Shown here piece after piece: positions 1,671 through 38,909 of a stretch of DNA of 40,184 nt. Made by a program: the position numbers and the translations under genes. The DNA comes from a virus. A model generated the notes under the pieces. The model was not told where the DNA came from. It saw only the letters and a program-made list of their open reading frames with translations, and did no database searches. Position 1 is the stretch's first letter. Every line of letters starts with the position of its first letter. The stretch covers positions 1 to 40,184 of IMG/VR virus record IMGVR_UViG_3300009695_000013, one strand, 5' to 3'.

Positions 1671-2195
1671 TTAAGCAATTGATAATCTTCGTTTTAGTAT
1701 CATCTTCGATCTTTCTCTTACATCAGACTTGGTTTTTCGATAGTCACGTTTCTTAATTTGATCGAAATTAACGACATTAATACGCAAATTCAGGATGTAT
1801 AAAACCGACTCGATGATATCCATCTGTGAGAAGTTCATCCGGTACCCATCCTGAAAAAATACATCGATCCACTGGTTAAACATCACCTCTATCCTATCCA
1901 CTATTTGTTCCTGGTCTTCTTTACAAATGTACAGATGTTTCGAAAATAGGGAGTACTGGTTGCATTCGGTCACTGGCAATAAGAATACAACCGGGTTATC
2001 GGCAGGCATCGTTACCGGCTTCAATGTAGTCTTAGTCAGAAATCCGTTGATCGCTTTCCCAATGTCGTTTCTCCGTGTGGCAACAAGTTCTTCCTGATCG
2101 AGTGGGGTTTCAAGTGCAAAACGGCACCAAGCTTCAAGGATTGGTGGAAGGTCAATAACTACAGAAGGTTTCATGGTTTGGTTTTTCTCGGACAT
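1671..2195 (-). CDS. Unknown protein at the early/late junction, basic C-terminus
   Basis: A 174-aa protein, not recognised. ATGs exist at 2195 and 2174 (MKPSVV); the second leaves more room after the hairpin at 2201-2238. The middle is helical and the last 30 residues are strongly basic (QIKKRDYRKTKSDVRERSK, KMILKRRL), which suggests nucleic-acid binding. It is the first gene after the iteron-rich region and the first of the rightward-lying head genes, the position where phages often put a late regulator. That role is inferred from position only. Confidence 0.65.
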   Translation of the reverse strand: MSEKNQTMKPSVVIDLPPILEAWCRFALETPLDQEELVATRRNDIGKAINGFLTKTTLKPVTMPADNPVVFLLPVTECNQYSLFSKHLYICKEDQEQIVDRIEVMFNQWIDVFFQDGYRMNFSQMDIIESVLYILNLRINVVNFDQIKKRDYRKTKSDVRERSKMILKRRLSIA

Positions 2196-2238: not shown

Positions 2239-2640
2239 AGATGTTGCTAAGGTAACCGTTTTTCTAATTGTTAGCTAGTATTTTCTAATTATAAAGCGAA
2301 TAAAGACTTCAAAGTATGCTGTTTTGATTGAAAAGCGTGTTTTTATAAAATATTTTTCCAAACCGTCTACAACCTACAACCTTTTTATATTAGCTTGAAT
2401 TATAATACTTTATATCTATATAGCGGGTTGTATTGTGAATATTGGTGTATATGGGTGTAGGTAGGGTGTAACCCAGCTTAAAAAAGTCGGGTACAACCTT
2501 CAACCTATTGTATTTCATTTATTTAAATGTAAGGTTGTAAGGGTGTAATCCAAAAAGCTTTTTTTCTTCTCTTTTTAAGTTTTTAAATAGTAGAATATAA
2601 ATTCTACTTTAGTATTAATAAAAAGATATATAAATTAAAA
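2239..2640. repeat. Iteron-rich noncoding region, candidate replication origin or control region
   Basis: About 400 bp hold no convincing gene. Heptamers of the type TACAACC recur: forward at 2368-2374, 2375-2381, 2492-2498 and as TTCAACC at 2499-2505; reversed as GGTTGTA at 2426-2432 and 2533-2539; and as GGGTGTA at 2453-2459, 2464-2470 and 2541-2547. Most occur in closely spaced pairs. An AT-rich tract with a perfect 8-bp inverted repeat (2589-2608) borders the array. The region directly follows the helicase-type replication genes, so an origin is likely; an operator array for the late genes is the alternative. Confidence 0.5.
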
Positions 2641-3070: not shown

Positions 3071-4279
3071 TTAATAAAGTTGAATTATATAGTAACCATA
3101 TCTTGAATTACCGTTTGCTTTCTTTGCCCTGCGCGTATATCCCAGCTGATTTAAGGCGATGCCGATATTGATGTCTGATACAGTAAACATGCTGGAGTTG
3201 ATCTTCCTTGCAGCTCGCAAATCGCGCAAAATCTCTACCGGTTGCTTGAACTCGCCTTCCTCCCCTTCTTCTGGAACACGATAGTTTTCTTTCACGACCC
3301 TGAAAGATGAAGTCTGGATCAGGAAACGGCTGTTGTATTCTGAAAATTCGGCGAAGTCTGCCGGGTTCCAGGTGTATTCAAAGTTTTGCGACAGGAGCAT
3401 CACCGCTTCAGCCCAAACCTGGTCGATATCTACATGATCATTGTATTGCCAGTCGATCGCGTCGATGTGGTTGATTGCAAAACGGCGTGAACTCATTCCG
3501 GGAGTGAGGAAGCCTCCATGCTCTGCATCTTTGTTGGAGGTACCGCACGTTGAAGCATAGCGCTGCTTGGTAGTTGTGAAGCGTTTGGATACATTGATTT
3601 GTTTAGATGACAGTATGTTCTTAAACTCTTCTTCTGATGACCTGGTAATACCAACCATCTCGTCAAATTGAATTAAAAGGTTGGTTGTAAACATATCAGG
3701 GTAATTCATATCCTTTACCGACTTGGTGAAATAACCTTTTAACATGTCAGGAAGCAGGAATTCAAGTAGTGTTGATTTGCCGATACCTTCCTCATTGTTC
3801 ACAATTACAAACATGGCATCGTTTTCTTTGATCCCCTTCGCACAGGCCACCACTGCCACGATCCACTTGCGGAAAGTATATGCCAGGCGTTTCTGATAGT
3901 AGCCTTCCTCCTTATCACCGTAATCACGAGCCACAAGGAAGCTGCACAAACGGTCAATGTGCGATTCACCAACATAGGTTCCTTCCAGTGATTCATAGTA
4001 TTCTTTGATCGGATTATAAGGCTTGGTTTGGTTGGGGCTGGTAAGGATATCTTTCAGGATGGAGGCGCACCCGCATATTCCCTCTTCGAGCATGTGAAGT
4101 GCGATATCCTTGATGGAAATTTCTTGGTCATATTCCCGGGTCTTTGGTTCAATCATCACTTTCGTATGATCGAAAATATTAATTTTTATATCATAGTGTA
4201 CTGCAAGGAATTCTTTCACAAGAGTAACTCTATTAGATCCGCCTGCAGGTATTTTGGTTTCGTTAAATTTCTTGGCCAT
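3071..4279 (-). CDS. VapE/VirE-type P-loop ATPase, probable replicative helicase
   Basis: A 402-aa protein. Walker A is EEGIGKST (163-170), Walker B LIQFDE with D206/E207, and GMSSRRFAI near 262 supplies a probable arginine finger; this matches the virulence-associated E helicase family. The C-terminal 80 residues form a DUF3874-like domain. No primase domain precedes the ATPase, so the protein is helicase only. It probably unwinds phage DNA together with the loader and initiator encoded upstream at 6762-7911. The ATG lies 23 bp after a hairpin, and the 136-aa paralogue of its tail follows 19 bp downstream. Confidence 0.85.
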   Translation of the reverse strand: MAKKFNETKIPAGGSNRVTLVKEFLAVHYDIKINIFDHTKVMIEPKTREYDQEISIKDIALHMLEEGICGCASILKDILTSPNQTKPYNPIKEYYESLEGTYVGESHIDRLCSFLVARDYGDKEEGYYQKRLAYTFRKWIVAVVACAKGIKENDAMFVIVNNEEGIGKSTLLEFLLPDMLKGYFTKSVKDMNYPDMFTTNLLIQFDEMVGITRSSEEEFKNILSSKQINVSKRFTTTKQRYASTCGTSNKDAEHGGFLTPGMSSRRFAINHIDAIDWQYNDHVDIDQVWAEAVMLLSQNFEYTWNPADFAEFSEYNSRFLIQTSSFRVVKENYRVPEEGEEGEFKQPVEILRDLRAARKINSSMFTVSDINIGIALNQLGYTRRAKKANGNSRYGYYIIQLY

Positions 4280-12621: not shown

Positions 12622-12918
12622 CTATTTAGATAATGAAAGATCATTCGCCGTCTTTTCTGTTTGTAAGACCCGAAGTTCATCGATAGTGATAGCCTCCGGA
12701 ACATTTTCAAGCAAATACTCCGTTGTACAATTTAGAAATAATGCAAGTTTAATAAGAGTTCCTGCTGCAGGTTCGTAAGCATCATCTAATTTGACATTCA
12801 GTATTTTACTGAAAGTCTGACGGCTTACATTCAGATATGCCGGTAGGTTACGCATGGCAATATCACGATCAATGGCCGGCAATTCATTAAGCAACTTTTT
12901 GATTCTGTACTTTGTCAT
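12622..12918 (-). CDS. Cro-like XRE regulator
   Basis: A 98-aa protein with an XRE-type HTH (about 20-75: LPAYLNVSRQTFSKILNVKL, then LIKLALFLNCTTEYLL). It is the first gene leftward from the switch region and diverges from the repressor at 13041, the position of Cro. It probably binds the TTACA...TGTAA operators between the two genes and controls entry into lytic growth. Confidence 0.75.
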   Translation of the reverse strand: MTKYRIKKLLNELPAIDRDIAMRNLPAYLNVSRQTFSKILNVKLDDAYEPAAGTLIKLALFLNCTTEYLLENVPEAITIDELRVLQTEKTANDLSLSK

Positions 12919-13040: not shown

Positions 13041-13442
13041 ATGTCCATCGGTCAGAATGTCAAAAGGTTAAGGAAAGAAAAAAAAATATCAGCTACCTTT
13101 ATTGGAAAGGCAGTTGGCAAAGGAGGTAGACAATGGGTCTATGATCTGGAGAAAGGAATAATAAAAAGGCTAACTGAGGATGACATTGAAAAGCTGGCTG
13201 AAATTCTTTCAGTTACAGTTAATGAACTACGCGAAAAAGATGAAACTAAGGAGGAGAAAGTTGAATTTTATTCATCATTAGAAAATGATGAATTTACGGC
13301 ACTGAAAGGCTTCAAGGAAAGATATTACTTTTTACTGGAAGAAAATAGGCGACTATGGAAGGAAAATTCTTATTTAAAATCACTATCATTAAAACACAAA
13401 ATAGACGTGTATAATACTGATAATCAAAATGACACACCTTGA
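13041..13442 (+). CDS. CI-like XRE repressor
   Basis: A 133-aa protein. The HTH occupies about 4-60 (GQNVKRLRKEKKISATFIGK, LEKGIIKRLTEDDIEKLAEI) and a coiled coil follows (about 85-115: FKERYYFLLEENRRLWKENS) that likely dimerises it. There is no S24 peptidase domain, so RecA-stimulated self-cleavage is unlikely and induction must differ from lambda. It is transcribed with the integrase away from the early operon. Confidence 0.8.
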   Translation: MSIGQNVKRLRKEKKISATFIGKAVGKGGRQWVYDLEKGIIKRLTEDDIEKLAEILSVTVNELREKDETKEEKVEFYSSLENDEFTALKGFKERYYFLLEENRRLWKENSYLKSLSLKHKIDVYNTDNQNDTP

Positions 13443-14811: not shown

Positions 14812-14817
14812 CTCGGT

Positions 14818-14832
14818 TACAACCTACAACCT
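14818..14832. repeat. Remote copy of the iteron pair
   Basis: TACAACCTACAACCT is identical to 2368-2382, the first iteron pair of the putative origin region. It lies 7 bp after the integrase stop and before the late terminator. The same protein may bind both places. Confidence 0.55.
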
Positions 14833-14847
14833 AATTTCAATAAAAAA

Positions 14848-31512: not shown

Positions 31513-31716
31513 CTATGGTTCGATTATTTCAATCTCAACACCCAATGCTTTCGCTATTTCGCACAACGTTTTCAGATTCGGCTGATACTTCACTGAAAAT
31601 ACACGGGCAATGTTTGATTGCTTCATACCGGTGAGTTCTGCAAGCTTATAGGTAGTAATACCCTTTTCTTTTGCAATTAACTTCAGTTTCGCAATTATCT
31701 CTTCTGAATTAGTCAT
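31513..31716 (-). CDS. XRE-family regulator of the cargo operon
   Basis: A 67-aa protein that is just an HTH domain (KLIAKEKGITTYKLAELTGM, KQSNIARVFSVKYQPNLKTL). It is the last gene of a four-gene operon, 4 bp after the 171-aa gene. Stand-alone XRE domains of this size often autoregulate toxin-antitoxin or defence operons. The palindromes over the operon promoter (33458-33514) are its likely targets. Confidence 0.75.
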   Translation of the reverse strand: MTNSEEIIAKLKLIAKEKGITTYKLAELTGMKQSNIARVFSVKYQPNLKTLCEIAKALGVEIEIIEP

Positions 31717-31720
31717 ATTG

Positions 31721-32236
31721 CTACTTAAATATTTGTTTCATTTTTCTTTGCTTGATCATCTCTTTTGTTGATACAACCGATAAAATTCCATTTAGTTTTT
31801 GTTCAACTTCTTCCGCCCTCATTTCTGATTGAAGTTCGCAAATGTCACGGATCGAACCTTCCAGCGATGAAGAAACCCCTACCATTCTCATAGCTGCCAG
31901 GTTTCCGGTTGTAGCATCAATTAGAAACATGTTCAGTACATTGCCCTGTTCATTCAACCATTTGTCTGTCTGTTCATCTGTCAGTTTGTGAATGTCCAGA
32001 GACACATCAAAACTGAATCCTTCGCCAAAATCAAAAATTACAAACGGAATGTTGTGTTTCTCAAATAAGCTAATTTCAAAACTTCCTTTCCTAAATCCCT
32101 TCGCTTCTTTGCTTGTGATGCCTGATATGCACACAATAACATCAAAGAACTTTTCATTGATTAATGCTACCGTAATTTCCCCACGATCCAAGTATTTTTC
32201 GTTGGGAAACCTTTGACCAACTTCATATTTTATCAT
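31721..32236 (-). CDS. Unknown cargo protein paired with the XRE regulator
   Basis: A 171-aa alpha/beta protein: strands EITVALINEKFFDVIVCISG and IPFVIFDFGEGFSFDVSLDI, then a helical C-terminus with a basic end (KEMIKQRKMKQIFK). The first 14 bases overlap the end of the 50-aa gene. It is followed at once by a small XRE gene, the layout of a toxin or effector with its regulator. No catalytic motif is recognised. Confidence 0.65.
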   Translation of the reverse strand: MIKYEVGQRFPNEKYLDRGEITVALINEKFFDVIVCISGITSKEAKGFRKGSFEISLFEKHNIPFVIFDFGEGFSFDVSLDIHKLTDEQTDKWLNEQGNVLNMFLIDATTGNLAAMRMVGVSSSLEGSIRDICELQSEMRAEEVEQKLNGILSVVSTKEMIKQRKMKQIFK

Positions 32237-32375
32237 GCCTATCTTTAATTTGTTCTAGTTTTTCTAACAATGAAACTTTTGACGGAGAATCAGGTTGTTC
32301 TTTTGCTTTTTCAATAATTCTTTCGAGCTCTTCTTTCGAAAGCTCAAGCATTTCAGGTAGATACAATGTTTTCAT
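32223..32375 (-). CDS. 50-aa helical protein, middle of the cargo operon
   Basis: An ORF read from the gap: it begins MKTLYLPEMLELSKEELERI and ends in a charged helix. Its ATG overlaps the stop of the 341-aa gene (ATGA at 32375-32372), and its end overlaps the next start by 14 bp. The double coupling makes it a real gene. A short amphipathic protein here could be an antitoxin-like or adaptor subunit. Confidence 0.7.
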   Translation of the reverse strand: MKTLYLPEMLELSKEELERIIEKAKEQPDSPSKVSLLEKLEQIKDRHDKI

Positions 32376-33397
32376 AATCTTACTCCAGTTAGGTTTCTTG
32401 TTTCACGCATTGCAACATGTGCAGCTTCCAACTCCTCAAACGAAACAGGGATTGAAGGCTCATTATACCTATTCCATATCCATCCGCTTTGAGTAGGGTT
32501 CGCTGTTCTATACTGTTCTTTCTTGTCCTCAGTATCGAATGAGTAATTGTTATTTACAATGAAGGCTTCAACATCCATCAGCATTCCACCACCTTCAATG
32601 AAGGTAGGATTAAGAACATATCCAAAATCAAAAATATTACGGGCTTTAAATTTATATGATTTACCCGACTTCATAGTGATTGTTATATCCTGTTCGTAAT
32701 CATCCCCATCAGAGCCAGGCGAAGTTCTTACCTTTGATTTTTCAACATTAGCAACATTTTTATACAACTCAGCCTTCTTATCGTCCTCTACTTTTTTAGA
32801 GATCTCTATTCTGTGATTGATTCTGATTTGTTCCGCTTCCTTGATATCAAGATTCTTTCTGATATTTTCTACCACATCTGCATACGAAATTGTATAGAAG
32901 TCCCAGCTATTATAATCATCGTAATCTGATGACGTTGGGGTAAAATCACGATGATTCAATTCATTGAGATTTGAAAGAACCGAATGAAACTGAATAAGAT
33001 AATGAGGAATTTCAGAATTAAGTATTGACCATTTATCAAATGAATGATATTTTAATTCTAATGTTCCAGGCAATATAAGATTTTCAGCTTCTTCTTTCCA
33101 GATTTCTGCCTGTTTTAATTTGAGTTCTTCAATAACCGGTTTCCAATCCTGGTTTAATTTGACATGAATATCTTCTTTTCTTTGAACCAACTGGGGAAAA
33201 TTTTCTTTCAGGAACAAAGAATTTGAACTGAATAAGATCGTTGGGATATACACTCCTTTTTCTTTTGCTTTGCTCAACTCGCAAGGATATTCTTTTCCGT
33301 TGAAAGTTGCTTTTTCCTGAATACGATAATTTGGTTTAATTTCGATTGAAATTGGAATTTCAATACCCGACTGTGTAATTGCTATTAATGCTTTCAT
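32372..33397 (-). CDS. Unknown 341-aa cargo protein
   Basis: The first and largest gene of the operon. It has a beta-rich start (KALIAITQSGIEIPISIEIK), a charged coiled-coil middle (about 90-115 and 185-220), an acidic stretch SPGSDGDDYEQD, and a beta-rich end. There is no signal peptide or membrane segment, and no known motif is visible. A promoter and two palindromes lie just upstream. It does not look structural; a defence, exclusion or conversion function is possible. Confidence 0.65.
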   Translation of the reverse strand: MKALIAITQSGIEIPISIEIKPNYRIQEKATFNGKEYPCELSKAKEKGVYIPTILFSSNSLFLKENFPQLVQRKEDIHVKLNQDWKPVIEELKLKQAEIWKEEAENLILPGTLELKYHSFDKWSILNSEIPHYLIQFHSVLSNLNELNHRDFTPTSSDYDDYNSWDFYTISYADVVENIRKNLDIKEAEQIRINHRIEISKKVEDDKKAELYKNVANVEKSKVRTSPGSDGDDYEQDITITMKSGKSYKFKARNIFDFGYVLNPTFIEGGGMLMDVEAFIVNNNYSFDTEDKKEQYRTANPTQSGWIWNRYNEPSIPVSFEELEAAHVAMRETRNLTGVRL

Positions 33398-33450
33398 CTT
33401 GTTTTACCGCATTGTGACTGTTGCCGCCAGCTTTAATTGTTTTGTGTGCT

Positions 33451-33514
33451 CAAAGTTAATATCTTTATTGATATTAAATGCAGTTTTTACAATTTATTTT
33501 ATCTTTTTTGATAT
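33451..33514 (-). promoter_or_regulatory. Promoter and paired palindromic operators of the cargo operon
   Basis: On minus, 33451-33458 reads TAACTTTG, a match to TAnnTTTG, about 54 bp before the ATG of the 341-aa gene. Overlapping it is AATATC-N6-GATATT (33458-33475); a second TATC-N6-GATA palindrome is at 33500-33513, with centres exactly 40 bp apart (about four helical turns). This arrangement suggests cooperative autorepression, probably by the XRE protein of the operon. Confidence 0.5.
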
Positions 33515-33576
33515 TATTTTTAATTAAAGTACAAAATAGATATTTGCTACCAAATTGCTCAAAGGTCAGAAACAAA

Positions 33577-33606
33577 AAAACCCGCTGATTGAGCGGGTTT
33601 TTTTTG
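33577..33606. terminator. Bidirectional terminator
   Basis: CCCGCT (33581-33586) pairs with AGCGGG (33592-33597) in a 5-nt-loop hairpin, with an A-run before it and a T-run after it. It ends the 208-aa gene (stop at 33628) on minus and could also stop plus-strand transcripts. Confidence 0.8.
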
Positions 33607-33627
33607 TTTGGTAAAGTTGTGTTAATT

Positions 33628-34254
33628 CTAAAACTTATATTTTATCCCTACACCATCAGGACCAACGTACATTTTTTTCATCCATTTATAACTATCTATA
33701 ATTAAGAAAGAGCCAATCAAACCCAACCCGGCACCAACAACTACGGGTATCTTTGGCTTTTCAGTAAATGCACCTCCGGTAGTAACAATTGCGCCAATTA
33801 AAGAAAACACATAACTAGTCATTACTTGCTTATTATACCTCCCTGCACAATACCTGATGTGGTCAATCTCATACTTGTATTTGTCATCAATCATTTGCAA
33901 AGTGTTAATTTTTACCGTTTCAGTATTCAAAAGTGAATCATTGATCTGTTTTGAAATTGGCTTTATGGTTAGTGGGTTATTGAGTCTAAAAATTTTTAAT
34001 TCCTTCAATTGTTTATTTTCGCATTTTACATTGAACCGACCAACATAGCCATGACCATCCTCATATTGAATAATATAATACTTCTTTGTAGCATCTTCAA
34101 TGATCACCGATGTCCAAATAGGCAAATTGCCAATGTATTTTTCATTTTGATTTGAATAAACCGGTGTATCAAAGTAGGTTTTGCCCACAATGTGATCAAC
34201 TTGGGCAATAGTAAAGAGAGGTAATATTAAGAACATGATTAATAATTTTTTCAT
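33628..34254 (-). CDS. Exported SH3-like membrane protein, moron candidate
   Basis: A 208-aa protein with a signal peptide (MKKLLIMFLILPLFTIAQ), an SH3-like bacterial domain (about 22-78: KTYFDTPVYSNQNEKYIG, then YYIIQYEDGHGYVGRF), a helical linker and two hydrophobic segments near 148-188. The last residues, GIKYKF, are typical of Bacteroidota envelope proteins. It has its own promoter and is flanked by terminators. It may act in the lysogen envelope, for example in exclusion; this is inference. Confidence 0.7.
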   Translation of the reverse strand: MKKLLIMFLILPLFTIAQVDHIVGKTYFDTPVYSNQNEKYIGNLPIWTSVIIEDATKKYYIIQYEDGHGYVGRFNVKCENKQLKELKIFRLNNPLTIKPISKQINDSLLNTETVKINTLQMIDDKYKYEIDHIRYCAGRYNKQVMTSYVFSLIGAIVTTGGAFTEKPKIPVVVGAGLGLIGSFLIIDSYKWMKKMYVGPDGVGIKYKF

Positions 34255-34907: not shown

Positions 34908-36527
34908 TTATTTCTTTCCCAACATTCCGGTTCCAATTCCAGCGGAGAAAATAACCTGAGGATAGAGAACGAGGCCGAGGAATAGCGTATCGAAGGCATC
35001 AGTGCCATCTGTGCGGAACTGGAGTAAATCTTCCTCAGTTTCGGCCAGCTTCTCTCCTGACTTATCTTTCTGCCATCCACGAGGGCCTATCTTGACGCCT
35101 GTTTGCTGAAGTGCCAAGATCAGGGCTTCATTGTTGGATGAGTTGATTTGCGGATAGAGGTACTTCTGACCTTTCAATGCCTGGTCAATGATCAGGTACT
35201 TTTCAGAATGGCGCAATGGGTTGCCAATGTGTACGCGGTGAACGGTCCAGCGGTTCTTGGTGAACTGGGAGCAGATGACAGAGGCAAAGTCTTCATCATT
35301 GACGGCATAGTTGGAACCCAGGGCTGTGTTGTCGAAGTAATAAACCACATCTTTTGTGCGGTGATGACGGTAATAGTTACAGAAATCATCGACTACCTCA
35401 CGCAATTTGCGCTCATACTTGACGTAAAATGATTTGAGCACCTTCGCCTTTAGTCCATCGGGTTGGCCAACTACCAGCCAGTTGATATCAGCATTGTAAT
35501 CGAAGGCCACATACAGCGGTTTATCCAGGTCAACATCACCATCCTGCTTGCAATCCTGCTGAGCTGCTTTCTCAAGGTCGTAATCAAGGTTGAGCAGGTA
35601 GGAATTGTTGAAGGCGGTGTAATAGTGCTCATCTTTAAGGCTGGGATAGAAGCCGTTTTTGAGTTTGCCGGGTCTGATGCATAGAATAGAAGTTTGAAAT
35701 ACCAGGGGTGGAAGATCCCGCTTCATCTGGGCAATGTATTTCTTTCCCAGAAGTTCAATATTTTCAATGGATGAACACTCGCGATAATAAACGGCAACGC
35801 TACGGAATTGGGCCAGACGTGTCTTGTATTCTACAATCAGCTTTTGAGTATAGGTATTTTGAGGTAATTGATTCAGTCTCCAAACTTCCTTCACCATAAA
35901 CTGAATCATGTTGATCAGTTCGGGATCCATCTTATCACGGTAAGAAAGGAACCAGGATCCTTTCTTGGTCGTTGGCATGTCGGACATCCAGAGCATGGAA
36001 TTCAACCAGGGGCAATTGGCCCACGGTCCTTTAAAACCACCATTGGCCGGAAGGCTTTCGTCTTTCAGTTTATCGAAGTTAAGAAACTTGGCTTCATCAC
36101 CAAACAGGTACTGAAGGGTAAGCGAGTTGGAAGATCCGGGAACGTCCTGAGAGATGAGATACTGAACAGAACCGTTGTACCAGGATATCACATGATCAAA
36201 CGATGCCGGTTCGTCGATAGGCGATTTAAAGCCCATCGACTTATCCGGGCGTTTATTGATGACGTAATGAACATCGCGCTTGAATCCCATATCCCTCCAG
36301 CTGGAAAGTACTCCCGGCAAAGTTCGGGTTAATGCCTGCTGAAAAGTTGATGCAATAATGCCACCGGCACTTCGGGGCATGTATTGCAAATTACGGAGCA
36401 ACCAAGGGCCGGCAATGCGTGATTTTCCAATACGACGACCTCCAACAAATGAACTGGTGTGAGCTGCTGTATATCGGAACTCAAGCTGGGGATCATTGAA
36501 ATATACTTTTTTGGTTTCAATCGTCAT
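34908..36527 (-). CDS. terL: Terminase large subunit
   Basis: A 539-aa protein. Walker A is GGRRIGKS (29-36), Walker B YLFGDE (near 140-146) and the C-terminal nuclease carries YVAFDYNADIN (near 338), YYFDNTALG (near 394) and DGTDAFDT (near 512) acidic clusters of the RNase-H-like fold. It drives DNA into the prohead and cuts it. It overlaps the TerS stop by 11 bp and is followed at once by a strong terminator. Full length for the family. Confidence 0.92.
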   Translation of the reverse strand: MTIETKKVYFNDPQLEFRYTAAHTSSFVGGRRIGKSRIAGPWLLRNLQYMPRSAGGIIASTFQQALTRTLPGVLSSWRDMGFKRDVHYVINKRPDKSMGFKSPIDEPASFDHVISWYNGSVQYLISQDVPGSSNSLTLQYLFGDEAKFLNFDKLKDESLPANGGFKGPWANCPWLNSMLWMSDMPTTKKGSWFLSYRDKMDPELINMIQFMVKEVWRLNQLPQNTYTQKLIVEYKTRLAQFRSVAVYYRECSSIENIELLGKKYIAQMKRDLPPLVFQTSILCIRPGKLKNGFYPSLKDEHYYTAFNNSYLLNLDYDLEKAAQQDCKQDGDVDLDKPLYVAFDYNADINWLVVGQPDGLKAKVLKSFYVKYERKLREVVDDFCNYYRHHRTKDVVYYFDNTALGSNYAVNDEDFASVICSQFTKNRWTVHRVHIGNPLRHSEKYLIIDQALKGQKYLYPQINSSNNEALILALQQTGVKIGPRGWQKDKSGEKLAETEEDLLQFRTDGTDAFDTLFLGLVLYPQVIFSAGIGTGMLGKK

Positions 36528-37095
36528 TTTTACTCAGGTCTTCATATTCAACATACTCCAATTCAATATCGTCCTTGTATTTTTCATACATCTTGCGGAT
36601 CTCTTCCTCTTTGTTGGCAAGCGGTTTTATTTTCAGAACCGTAGGATCTGATGTTGGCTCGATGGAAATAGGAATGATCTCATCCCAGGGGATTTCGAGG
36701 GCGTCTTCTTTGTCGAGCCGGTTGTATTTTCCGAGTAACCCGGCAGCTGCTATGCGTTCCTTGAGATATTTCTTTTTCTTGGCATCGGTGATGGCTCCCT
36801 TCAGGGTTTCATTGACCAGATAACGGATCCATTCCTTGCCGGCATTGCGGACATTTCCAAGTAAGATCCTGATGTTACCGATATCGCGGTAAGCCTGGCT
36901 TTCTGATATTTTAAATTCTTTTACCAAAAAATCACGCAGCTTGATATCAGCTATAAAAGGAGTTTCGAGGGAGAGATGAAAGGCTGCACGGTAGCGCTTG
37001 AGCTGATCAATCTCAACGGGCAACAGGTGATCTGACTCCTTGATATCGGAGAACAGTACATCGCGAAATTTATCAAGATTGCATTTACGGCTCAT
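36517..37095 (-). CDS. terS: Terminase small subunit
   Basis: A 192-aa protein from the ATG at 37095; the frame extends to a TTG at 37113. The middle, DFLVKEFKISESQAYRDIGN (beginning after KLR), is an HTH that would recognise the packaging site. The C-terminus is acidic (KYKDDIELEYVEYEDLSKND) and likely contacts TerL. It overlaps terL by 11 bp, and the inverted iteron array lies about 100 bp upstream. Confidence 0.8.
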   Translation of the reverse strand: MSRKCNLDKFRDVLFSDIKESDHLLPVEIDQLKRYRAAFHLSLETPFIADIKLRDFLVKEFKISESQAYRDIGNIRILLGNVRNAGKEWIRYLVNETLKGAITDAKKKKYLKERIAAAGLLGKYNRLDKEDALEIPWDEIIPISIEPTSDPTVLKIKPLANKEEEIRKMYEKYKDDIELEYVEYEDLSKNDD

Positions 37096-37197
37096 GATGC
37101 TAATTTGCAGCAATAAGATAGGTTAAGGAAGGACAGATACTAATTTTTAAAAGCAGTAATTTTGAGGCAATATCTGACAAACAGTTTCGATCGTTCC

Positions 37198-37335
37198 GTC
37201 AATTACGCCATTTACGCCATTTACGCCAATTACGCCATTGGTGTTTTTTACCAATAGAGTTCAATTTTTTACTATTGAAGGTTAAAAATACTAATTGGCG
37301 TAATTGGCGTAATTGGCGTAATTGGCGTAATTGAC
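37198..37335. repeat. Inverted array of 9-bp iterons, candidate packaging site
   Basis: Left arm: four units of (A/T)ATTACGCC type at 37201-37236 (AATTACGCC, two ATTTACGCC, AATTACGCC). Right arm: four exact GGCGTAATT units at 37297-37332. Flanking GTC (37198-37200) and GAC (37333-37335) are symmetrical. The arms are inverted about 37266, with a 55-bp AT-rich centre that has a smaller inverted repeat (CAATAG/CTATTG). A further exact unit, GGCGTAAAT, lies at 38338-38346. The site is the longest gap in the head operon and lies next to terS. Confidence 0.75.
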
Positions 37336-37403
37336 AGAACTATCCTCAAAACTCCAATACATTTCAAATTCAGTTATAGATAGAATCTTCGGTACATATT
37401 AAA

Positions 37404-37433
37404 AAAAGGCTGAACCTATTGGATCAGCCTTTT
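37404..37433 (-). terminator. Terminator after the 251-aa gene
   Basis: AAAAGGCTGA (37404-37413) pairs perfectly with TCAGCCTTTT (37424-37433); on minus a T-run continues (complement of 37401-37407). It ends the capsid transcript before the iteron array and terS. Confidence 0.8.
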
Positions 37434-37502
37434 CATAAAATTGGTGAGATTGCTTCGTGCCTACCAATGACATGCCGGTCGTGGGGCTGCGGATGCGAAT
37501 GG

Positions 37503-38258
37503 TTAAGCGATTCCAAGTTTTTGCAATGCCTCTAAAGTTGCAGGCTTCACATCCGCTTTGGCTTCGATCAGGAATGCATAGCGAAGTTTGAGTTCAGCGA
37601 TCATCTTTTCGTGTTTTTCGCCTGTTAATTTTTCGATGCCTTTGATTCCACGCGAAAGGTAAGAGCGTGCAGCATTGATTTCCTTGTAGGATTCGGGATC
37701 CTTATCGGGAGCAGATTCAGGGATCTTCCCAGTTTCTAAGAAAAAGTCGATGAGCTTCCAGTTGGCAGAAACTAAGTCATCAAGAGAAACGAGTTCTTTG
37801 CGGATTTCAGCCCTTTCACCATCTTTTTTGGCCAGCTTCATTCTCTCGTGAAGCGCACGCATGAGCTTGTGTTTTTCGCTGTTAAAATCGAACAACAGCT
37901 TCATGGGTTCCGGAAGTTCATCAGGATTGATTTTACCCGATATCAGGTCTGTCTTTTTTTCATGATGCAGAATCAATCCTTCGGAAGCAGCTAAATACTG
38001 AGCATGTTCCTGGGCAACGATCACTGTTTTGATTGGCATCACCGGTGCATCGATGATCACACCGCGATCGAGTATCTTTTGCAGTTCGTATTCCAGCTTG
38101 CTAGCCATGGCTGCACCTTTACGGGCAAATTGCAAAGCCATGGCCCTGTTGTGGGAGAAACGCACGAAAAGCAGATACCCAGCATTGAAATCCTTACCTG
38201 ATTCCAACCAGGCTTTAATTTCTTTCGCGTATTGTTCTGTATTATTTAAATCGTTCAT
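37503..38258 (-). CDS. Unknown helical protein between tail tube and terminase
   Basis: A 251-aa, almost entirely helical protein: AKEIKAWLESGKDFNAGYLL at the start, then charged helices (KLMRALHERMKLAKKDGERA, RKELVSLDDLVSANWKLIDF). I do not recognise it. It is flanked by terminators and precedes terS. It might be an assembly or packaging accessory factor; evidence is positional. Confidence 0.6.
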   Translation of the reverse strand: MNDLNNTEQYAKEIKAWLESGKDFNAGYLLFVRFSHNRAMALQFARKGAAMASKLEYELQKILDRGVIIDAPVMPIKTVIVAQEHAQYLAASEGLILHHEKKTDLISGKINPDELPEPMKLLFDFNSEKHKLMRALHERMKLAKKDGERAEIRKELVSLDDLVSANWKLIDFFLETGKIPESAPDKDPESYKEINAARSYLSRGIKGIEKLTGEKHEKMIAELKLRYAFLIEAKADVKPATLEALQKLGIA

Positions 38259-38327: not shown

Positions 38328-38909
38328 TTACACAATTGGCGTAAATACACCGGTTGTACAGTCGAGAGAACCGTTAGAAAGAAGGATAACTCCATCGTAG
38401 TTTGGAAGCGGAGTAAAGCAAGGTACTTCAACTTCAATAGTCAAACCTTTCGCGCTCCCAGGTTCGCCACCAGATGTGCCCGAAATCTTCACTTCGCTGT
38501 CGTAATCAATGTCGCCCAATACTACGTAACGTTTTTCGCTGGAGTGTGGCAATTTAGCGATATAAATCATGCTCGAATTCAACGTAACCTTTGCGTGACT
38601 CCTAGCAGCATCGCTGATGTCAGGAAAACTGAATTTTCCTTTGTTCAGAAATACCTTGCATTCTTTTTCGCCGGTTGGTTCGAAGTTTACTTCACCTTTA
38701 CCTTGCGTAGAATGTAGCCTAAACCAGGTTTTTGTAGGAAATAGTCCAAAATCGCCTGCCAACAGCACGTTGGCCAATGGCGTAGCAGGACCAGCTACAA
38801 CCACCGGAAATGTTTTGATATCCGATTTAGGGATATAAAACAATTCGGTTGCTATACCCGACGGGTTTGCTTGCCCGTCGGCCCATGTCATGTCAGTAAA
38901 TAGTCCCAT
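38328..38909 (-). CDS. Probable major tail tube protein
   Basis: A 193-aa beta-rich protein just 2 bp after the capsid gene, so probably made in large amounts. It has beta strands typical of tube proteins, and GTSGGEPGSAKGLTIEVEVP near 150 resembles the conserved loop-strand in such proteins. A head decoration protein is the alternative. A single extra copy of the packaging-like 9-mer falls over its stop codon. Confidence 0.5.
   Translation of the reverse strand: MGLFTDMTWADGQANPSGIATELFYIPKSDIKTFPVVVAGPATPLANVLLAGDFGLFPTKTWFRLHSTQGKGEVNFEPTGEKECKVFLNKGKFSFPDISDAARSHAKVTLNSSMIYIAKLPHSSEKRYVVLGDIDYDSEVKISGTSGGEPGSAKGLTIEVEVPCFTPLPNYDGVILLSNGSLDCTTGVFTPIV

Follow-up and report, generated by a model that had tools for sequence, protein, structure and literature searches.

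The stretch of DNA analysed here (the window) is an entire virus record of 40,184 nucleotides (IMG/VR IMGVR_UViG_3300009695_000013) that carries a 123-bp direct terminal repeat, and the molecule is therefore circular or circularly permuted, at ~40,061 bp. All genes lie on the minus strand with the exception of one HTH gene and the integrase, and GC skew tracks gene strand and is uninformative on origins. The phage is temperate and its relatives infect Bacteroidales, hosts that we judge from the relatives found in genomes, the closest of which is an 82% TerL match in a Prolixibacteraceae MAG. The head genes, read over the contig joint, follow the order ClpP-like protease, 405-aa major capsid candidate, 193-aa gene, 251-aa gene, terminator hairpin, the repeat array that is the subject of this analysis, 198-aa gene, and TerL (Table 1). 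Between TerL and a portal-like gene (31513-34254) lie genes for a small XRE protein and its 171-aa partner (phrog_12389), and for proteins of 341 and 208 aa; these were not found in the four relatives compared and are probably cargo genes. The HTH proteins of the window number three, encoded at 12622-12918, 13041-13442, and 31513-31716.

Table 1. Features of the window discussed in the text
Feature	Position	Strand	Basis
Fast-evolving 174-aa protein, directly downstream of the second array	1671..2195	-	
Second array, nine NTACAMCM units in both orientations	2360..2550, in the 445-bp intergenic region 2196-2640	none	
VapE-like replication helicase	3071..4279	-	Pfam VapE-like_dom 1.1e-17; PHROG DNA helicase 4.3e-21
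Large terminase (TerL)	34908..36527	-	homology (tblastn) to TerL as annotated in Microcystis phages and Bacteroides phage BT-TP2
Candidate small terminase (198-aa gene; 192 aa from conserved ATG), overlaps TerL start	36517..37095	-	
Left 62-bp inverted arm, including flank GATCGTTCCGTCA	37189..37250	+	
Left arm, four WTTACGCCA units, exact 9-bp spacing	37202..37237	+	repeat analysis
AT-rich centre, 58 bp, 78% AT	37238..37295	none	
Right 62-bp inverted arm, including flank TGACAGAACTATC	37283..37344	-	
Right arm, four exact units, TGGCGTAAT on + = ATTACGCCA on -	37296..37331	-	
Terminator-like hairpin AAAAGGCTGATCC..GGTTCAGCCTTTTTTT, closes upstream head-gene operon	37396..37441	-	inverted repeat, folded
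251-aa gene upstream of the array, conserved order MCP-193-251	37503..38258	-	

The TerL assignment is secure, resting on homology to annotated terminases, but calling the 198-aa gene terS is itself uncertain. The sequence-only reading placed the array beside terS, and the gene in question does adjoin TerL in 36 of the 36 relatives searched; on the other hand, it had no family match in any library searched, and in the Microcystis phage Mea-Yong924-1 the annotated terS is a different gene of ~93 aa, located directly upstream of the 198-aa equivalent, of which the window has no counterpart. Fold searches with AlphaFold models of the 198-aa protein (all-helical, pLDDT 74.5) and of the 174-aa protein encoded beside the second array (confident, pLDDT 91.9) returned no match in the PDB, so that neither protein can be named from its structure.

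The array itself is much as it had been described from the letters alone: eight 9-bp iterons upstream of the candidate terS are borne out as four units on each of two mirrored arms, with the left-arm units in the order ATTACGCCA-TTTACGCCA-TTTACGCCA-ATTACGCCA. The centre is AT-rich as claimed, although 58 rather than 55 bp long, and holds two small dyads (ATTGGT..ACCAAT and TTCAAT..ATTGAA). The flanks had been given as a symmetrical GTC/GAC; the symmetry is real but reaches further, into inverted arms of 62 bp with 84% complementarity and, beyond these, an outer pair TTTTGAGG/CCTCAAAA (37160-37167 and 37344-37351). All eight units share an identical 8-bp core and have one variable position each. 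The largest number of copies of any 8-mer within 130 bp is eight here, compared to four, reached once, in 60 Markov-1 genomes matched in size to the window, and the eight-copy array is not a product of chance. A lone extra unit had also been noted; it is present inside the 193-aa gene, at the corrected position 38337-38345, but chance alone would yield 0.86 copies of the array 8-mer over the window, and the extra unit therefore carries no weight. No second copy of the array occurs elsewhere in the window. Two simple accounts of its nature were rejected: a coding repeat of three residues, as no frame is open through both arms, and an intrinsic terminator, as no U-run follows the stem and a single weak match was obtained, on the plus strand.

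Comparison of the two 62-bp arms with one another revealed ten differences, distributed as 0 of 32 core positions and 10 of 30 other positions. The contrast between core and other positions (p = 3e-4) is post hoc, since the cores were defined by their identity, while that between array and flanks gives p = 0.013. Invariant cores within a diverged remainder point to recognition of the words at the level of DNA rather than to pairing, with the caveat that invariance was what defined the cores and that repeats can be homogenised by slippage. This pattern bears on the possibility that the array acts as RNA: the transcribed arms would fold into a long hairpin in the terS leader, which would either be cleaved by RNase III or impede translation or transcription. 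The predicted fold is indeed very stable (-120.5 kcal/mol, z = -12.8 versus shuffles), but a low energy is expected of any inverted repeat this long, identity of tandem 9-bp units is unnecessary for a hairpin, no U-run follows the stem, and the ten arm differences are mostly pair-breaking transversions for which no compensation is visible. We consider an RNA element the least probable of the readings weighed here.

The position of the array directly upstream of the candidate terS had led to the proposal that it is a pac or cos site at which packaging is initiated, bound by the neighbouring small terminase. There is precedent for such a location, as the pac site of SPP1 contains direct repeats and spans the start of the small-terminase gene (PMC4737164). 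However, the DNA-binding domain of the SF6 small terminase has little sequence specificity for the pac repeats (PMC4737164), and repeats alone are therefore no mark of a pac site. The array resembles the SPP1/SF6 sites in that repeats lie directly before a small-terminase gene, here a candidate one, but in those sites the repeats are direct only, whereas the array is mirrored and is not conserved with the terminase. A search for TerL relatives yielded 76 viral loci and 25 genome loci. In 20 relatives tested over the 420 bp preceding the 198-aa gene, the check for a like array beside terS found none (0 of 20), and no word was present in more than three copies, except for a 7-bp tandem in L012. 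Among the 20 are L011 and L020; their 198-aa homologs share 75-76% identity with that of the window and retain an unchanged core HTH (SESQAYRDIGNIRILLGN), so the array is missing despite an identical core HTH in the candidate TerS. The paired tandem unit was likewise absent, at up to two mismatches, from the whole records of six relatives. Additionally, Leef_1, the one related phage with mapped termini, is of the Cos 3' type (PMC8776804), and its record begins 83 bp downstream of the terL stop codon, i.e., on the far side of terL; we infer that this start is the cos end, and the TerL of Leef_1 is only 27.5% identical to that of the window. Together with the annotation of another gene, missing in the window, as terS in a relative, these observations leave the packaging proposal unsupported. 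The array is probably not the packaging site, a role that we regard as improbable, if slightly less so than that of an RNA hairpin.

The comparison with relatives also indicates that the 251-aa gene and the candidate terS are separated by a variable insertion site. The terminator-like hairpin has counterparts at the same position in L014, L016, L018, and L019, and the variable site contains a PLD-like gene and a ~92-aa HTH-like gene in L015, L030, and L134, an unrelated 318-aa gene in L020, and nothing in L014 and L019. The module of a 165-aa PLD-like protein and a ~92-aa protein upstream of terS is found in many relatives (L011 as well as L015, L030, and L134), and is lacking in the window and in some other relatives; the counterpart of its ~92-aa protein is annotated as terS in the Microcystis phage MZ447863. 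It is conceivable, then, that the array is a functionless relic, either an inverted duplication or a MITE-like insertion, lodged in this variable spot. Consistent with this, the match to L011 picks up again at the outer CCTCAAAA/TTTTGAGG pair, and the 62-bp arms reach beyond the units. A MITE would be recognised by a target-site duplication and further copies; no such duplication was seen at the arm ends, and no further copy of the array was found in the window, in the six relatives, or in 393 Bacteroidales genomes. Moreover, the cores are unchanged while their flanks have diverged. A relic is accordingly unlikely in our estimation, yet more plausible than a packaging site.

A stronger alternative is that the array is an operator or enhancer, at which a repressor or activator controls a promoter inside or beside the array that drives terS-terL after the upstream terminator. 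The array is placed between the terminator-like hairpin and the terS start, the fast evolution of regulator sites would fit a gain in one lineage, and a weak match to a Bacteroidota-type promoter abuts the right arm (TTTGA ... TAGTTCTG, 37367-37335). However, matches of this type are at background level (0.38 expected per 400 bp), as are those of a sigma-70 scan, the genome contains no second copy of the array, and no regulator gene lies beside it. In relatives such as L014, the distance from terminator to start codon is short, from about a dozen up to a few dozen nucleotides, and a promoter is thus not needed there.

The unit as used in other genomes is relevant to this question. Searches for the exact array matched only coding repeats in viral contigs (L007-L010, L088, and L089) and nothing in the genome collection, and the array is, by these comparisons, lineage-specific and so far unique to this phage. 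A search of all IMG/VR for two tandem units returned 12 stretches, most of them coding. One, in the unrelated virus L170, lies directly 3' of a DUF3987 helicase gene (Pfam 4e-65) and contains 2 + 2 TTACGCC units at 9-bp spacing, with an AT-rich centre between the mirrored pairs, and in L161 an intergenic cluster of units is followed by an AT-rich run. In Heliusvirales phages, two units precede an XRE regulator gene next to a DNA polymerase gene; in one of these, NatCom_20922, they are spaced by 9 bp between TACGCA/TGCGTA half-sites immediately before the XRE-family regulator gene, and this use of the word in an operator-like position speaks for the operator reading. In the Heliusvirales locus L090 (PV036430, 5001-5027), TTGTACGCA-AATTACGCCAATTACGCCAATC-TGCGTACAA before an XRE regulator gene is likely an operator. 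The site shares with the array the tandem ATTACGCCA and its 9-bp spacing, but differs in that its two units have the same direction, lie inside the TTGTACGCA/TGCGTACAA dyad, and adjoin the regulator gene. Judging from these contexts, the TTACGCC word occurs in two kinds of setting, one helicase-linked and origin-like, the other operator-like. On balance, an operator of the terminase transcript is possible, more so than a relic, and is a close rival of the reading that we favour.

A second repeat array lies 5.2 kb away round the circle, downstream of the VapE-like helicase gene, with a gene for a 136-aa protein in between. In relatives, a scan for clustered words identified one cluster at a constant place, ~5-5.6 kb upstream of terS and before the ~174-aa gene (for example, 4292-4525 in L014, 3626-3848 in L021, 4066-4308 in L035, 3616-3841 in L026, and 3892-4106 in L049, among others), and in the window and L159 it is placed after the VapE-like replication helicase. 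Over the 650 bp before the 174-aa gene, word repeats exceed those in all 200 control stretches in 24 of 26 records. The two exceptions are L030 and the window. In the latter the cluster is weaker by this exact-word count, which 3% of controls reached, but its nine NTACAMCM units compare with 0.4 expected. The word of the cluster varies by clade (GTTACAA, GGTTGTA, TACTACA, GGTGTCA, and TGTCAAA, among others) and, in those genomes for which 8-mer counts were made, seldom occurs outside the cluster. A position 3' of the initiator helicase is that of SaPI and PICI origins (PMC6092414, PMC7581432), and the second array belongs to the conserved, origin-like cluster of the phage group, a putative origin. 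In the nearest relative, GTTACAAA-GTTACGCC-GTTACACA stand in register within the array that precedes the 174-aa gene, and this places TTACGCC within the unit family of the phage group. Homologs of the 174-aa protein occur in nearly 60 loci, always directly downstream of a word cluster, and are 10-38% identical between phages, compared to 60-80% for the neighbouring head genes of the nearest relative. Two units of the second-array type (GGTTACAACCTACAACC, 14815-14833) were also observed directly after the integrase stop codon.

Based on its layout, the terminase-side array is most likely an ectopic origin-type element, a tentative choice that we rank ahead of a terminase operator, a functionless inverted duplication, a pac or cos site, and an RNA hairpin, in that order. 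PICI origins consist of two iteron sets flanking an AT-rich region (PMC6092414), and SaPI Rep helicases bind such iterons through their C-terminal domain (PMC7581432). The 4 + 4 units around an AT-rich 58 bp correspond to this layout, and it is from this correspondence that the proposed role follows. The remark in the sequence-only reading that the symmetry would suit an origin has thus fared better than its main proposal, the unit being arranged in the same manner beside the helicase gene of L170. The absence of core differences between the arms is as expected if the words are kept, and the L170 and L161 clusters and the GTTACAAA-GTTACGCC-GTTACACA run in the helicase-linked array of the nearest relative are likewise in favour of an origin-type element. 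Nevertheless, several observations argue against it. The array is PICI-origin-like in layout, yet it is not immediately 3' of a rep or helicase gene: neither a helicase nor an initiator gene adjoins it, the helicase gene is >5 kb away, and the standard place is already occupied by the conserved origin-like array. The array is absent from all relatives examined, and is therefore dispensable in the group. Finally, the NTACAMCM units differ from TTACGCCA by one fixed base, but this resemblance is not significant, with a chance of roughly one case in ten by our estimate, and was on these grounds rejected as proof of a single binder shared by the two arrays.

The array is thus best described as lineage-specific and probably acting at the DNA level, through predicted protein binding. 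As an ectopic origin-type element, it might work as follows. Each TTACGCCA core would be one recognition site, and the four in-line sites of an arm would allow the protein to oligomerise along the DNA, such that two oligomers face each other over the AT-rich centre. The bound initiator, possibly the VapE-like helicase of the phage or a related one, would then melt this centre or, alternatively, pair the array with the conserved array 5.2 kb away. A PICI-type origin in a variable spot and without a rep gene could be a second origin with helicase specificity, or could serve as a decoy, diverting the Rep helicase of a competing satellite from that satellite's origin; we attach only a small probability to this more specific idea.

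Other known systems provide partial parallels. The ori and crr clusters of the satellite phage P4 share the same unit, recognised by the alpha protein. As in P4, two iteron clusters lie kilobases apart in one genome, but the two clusters of the window differ in unit, and the terminase-side cluster is lineage-specific. Plasmid partition centromeres such as R1 parC have a short centre with a run of short iterons on either side, as does the array, whereas the phage has an integrase and, among its annotated genes, no recognised partition gene pair. The Cox boxes of P2 are 9-bp repeats as well; a Cox-box model was rejected, as no excisionase-type gene is present among the genes scanned. From PICI and SaPI origins, the array is set apart not only by its location but also by its strict mirror symmetry, its exact 9-bp spacing, and the presence of the other, helicase-linked array.

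If the array is of origin type, this temperate phage would carry two iteron clusters that differ in specificity, the first conserved with the helicase and the second acquired next to the terminase, and would offer a natural test case for how phage origins move, specialise, or serve against satellites. Even if it is instead an operator, the conserved repeat cluster adjoins the replication helicase in a poorly known group of Bacteroidales phages, and given that its word varies by clade, the co-evolution of helicase and iterons is directly testable.
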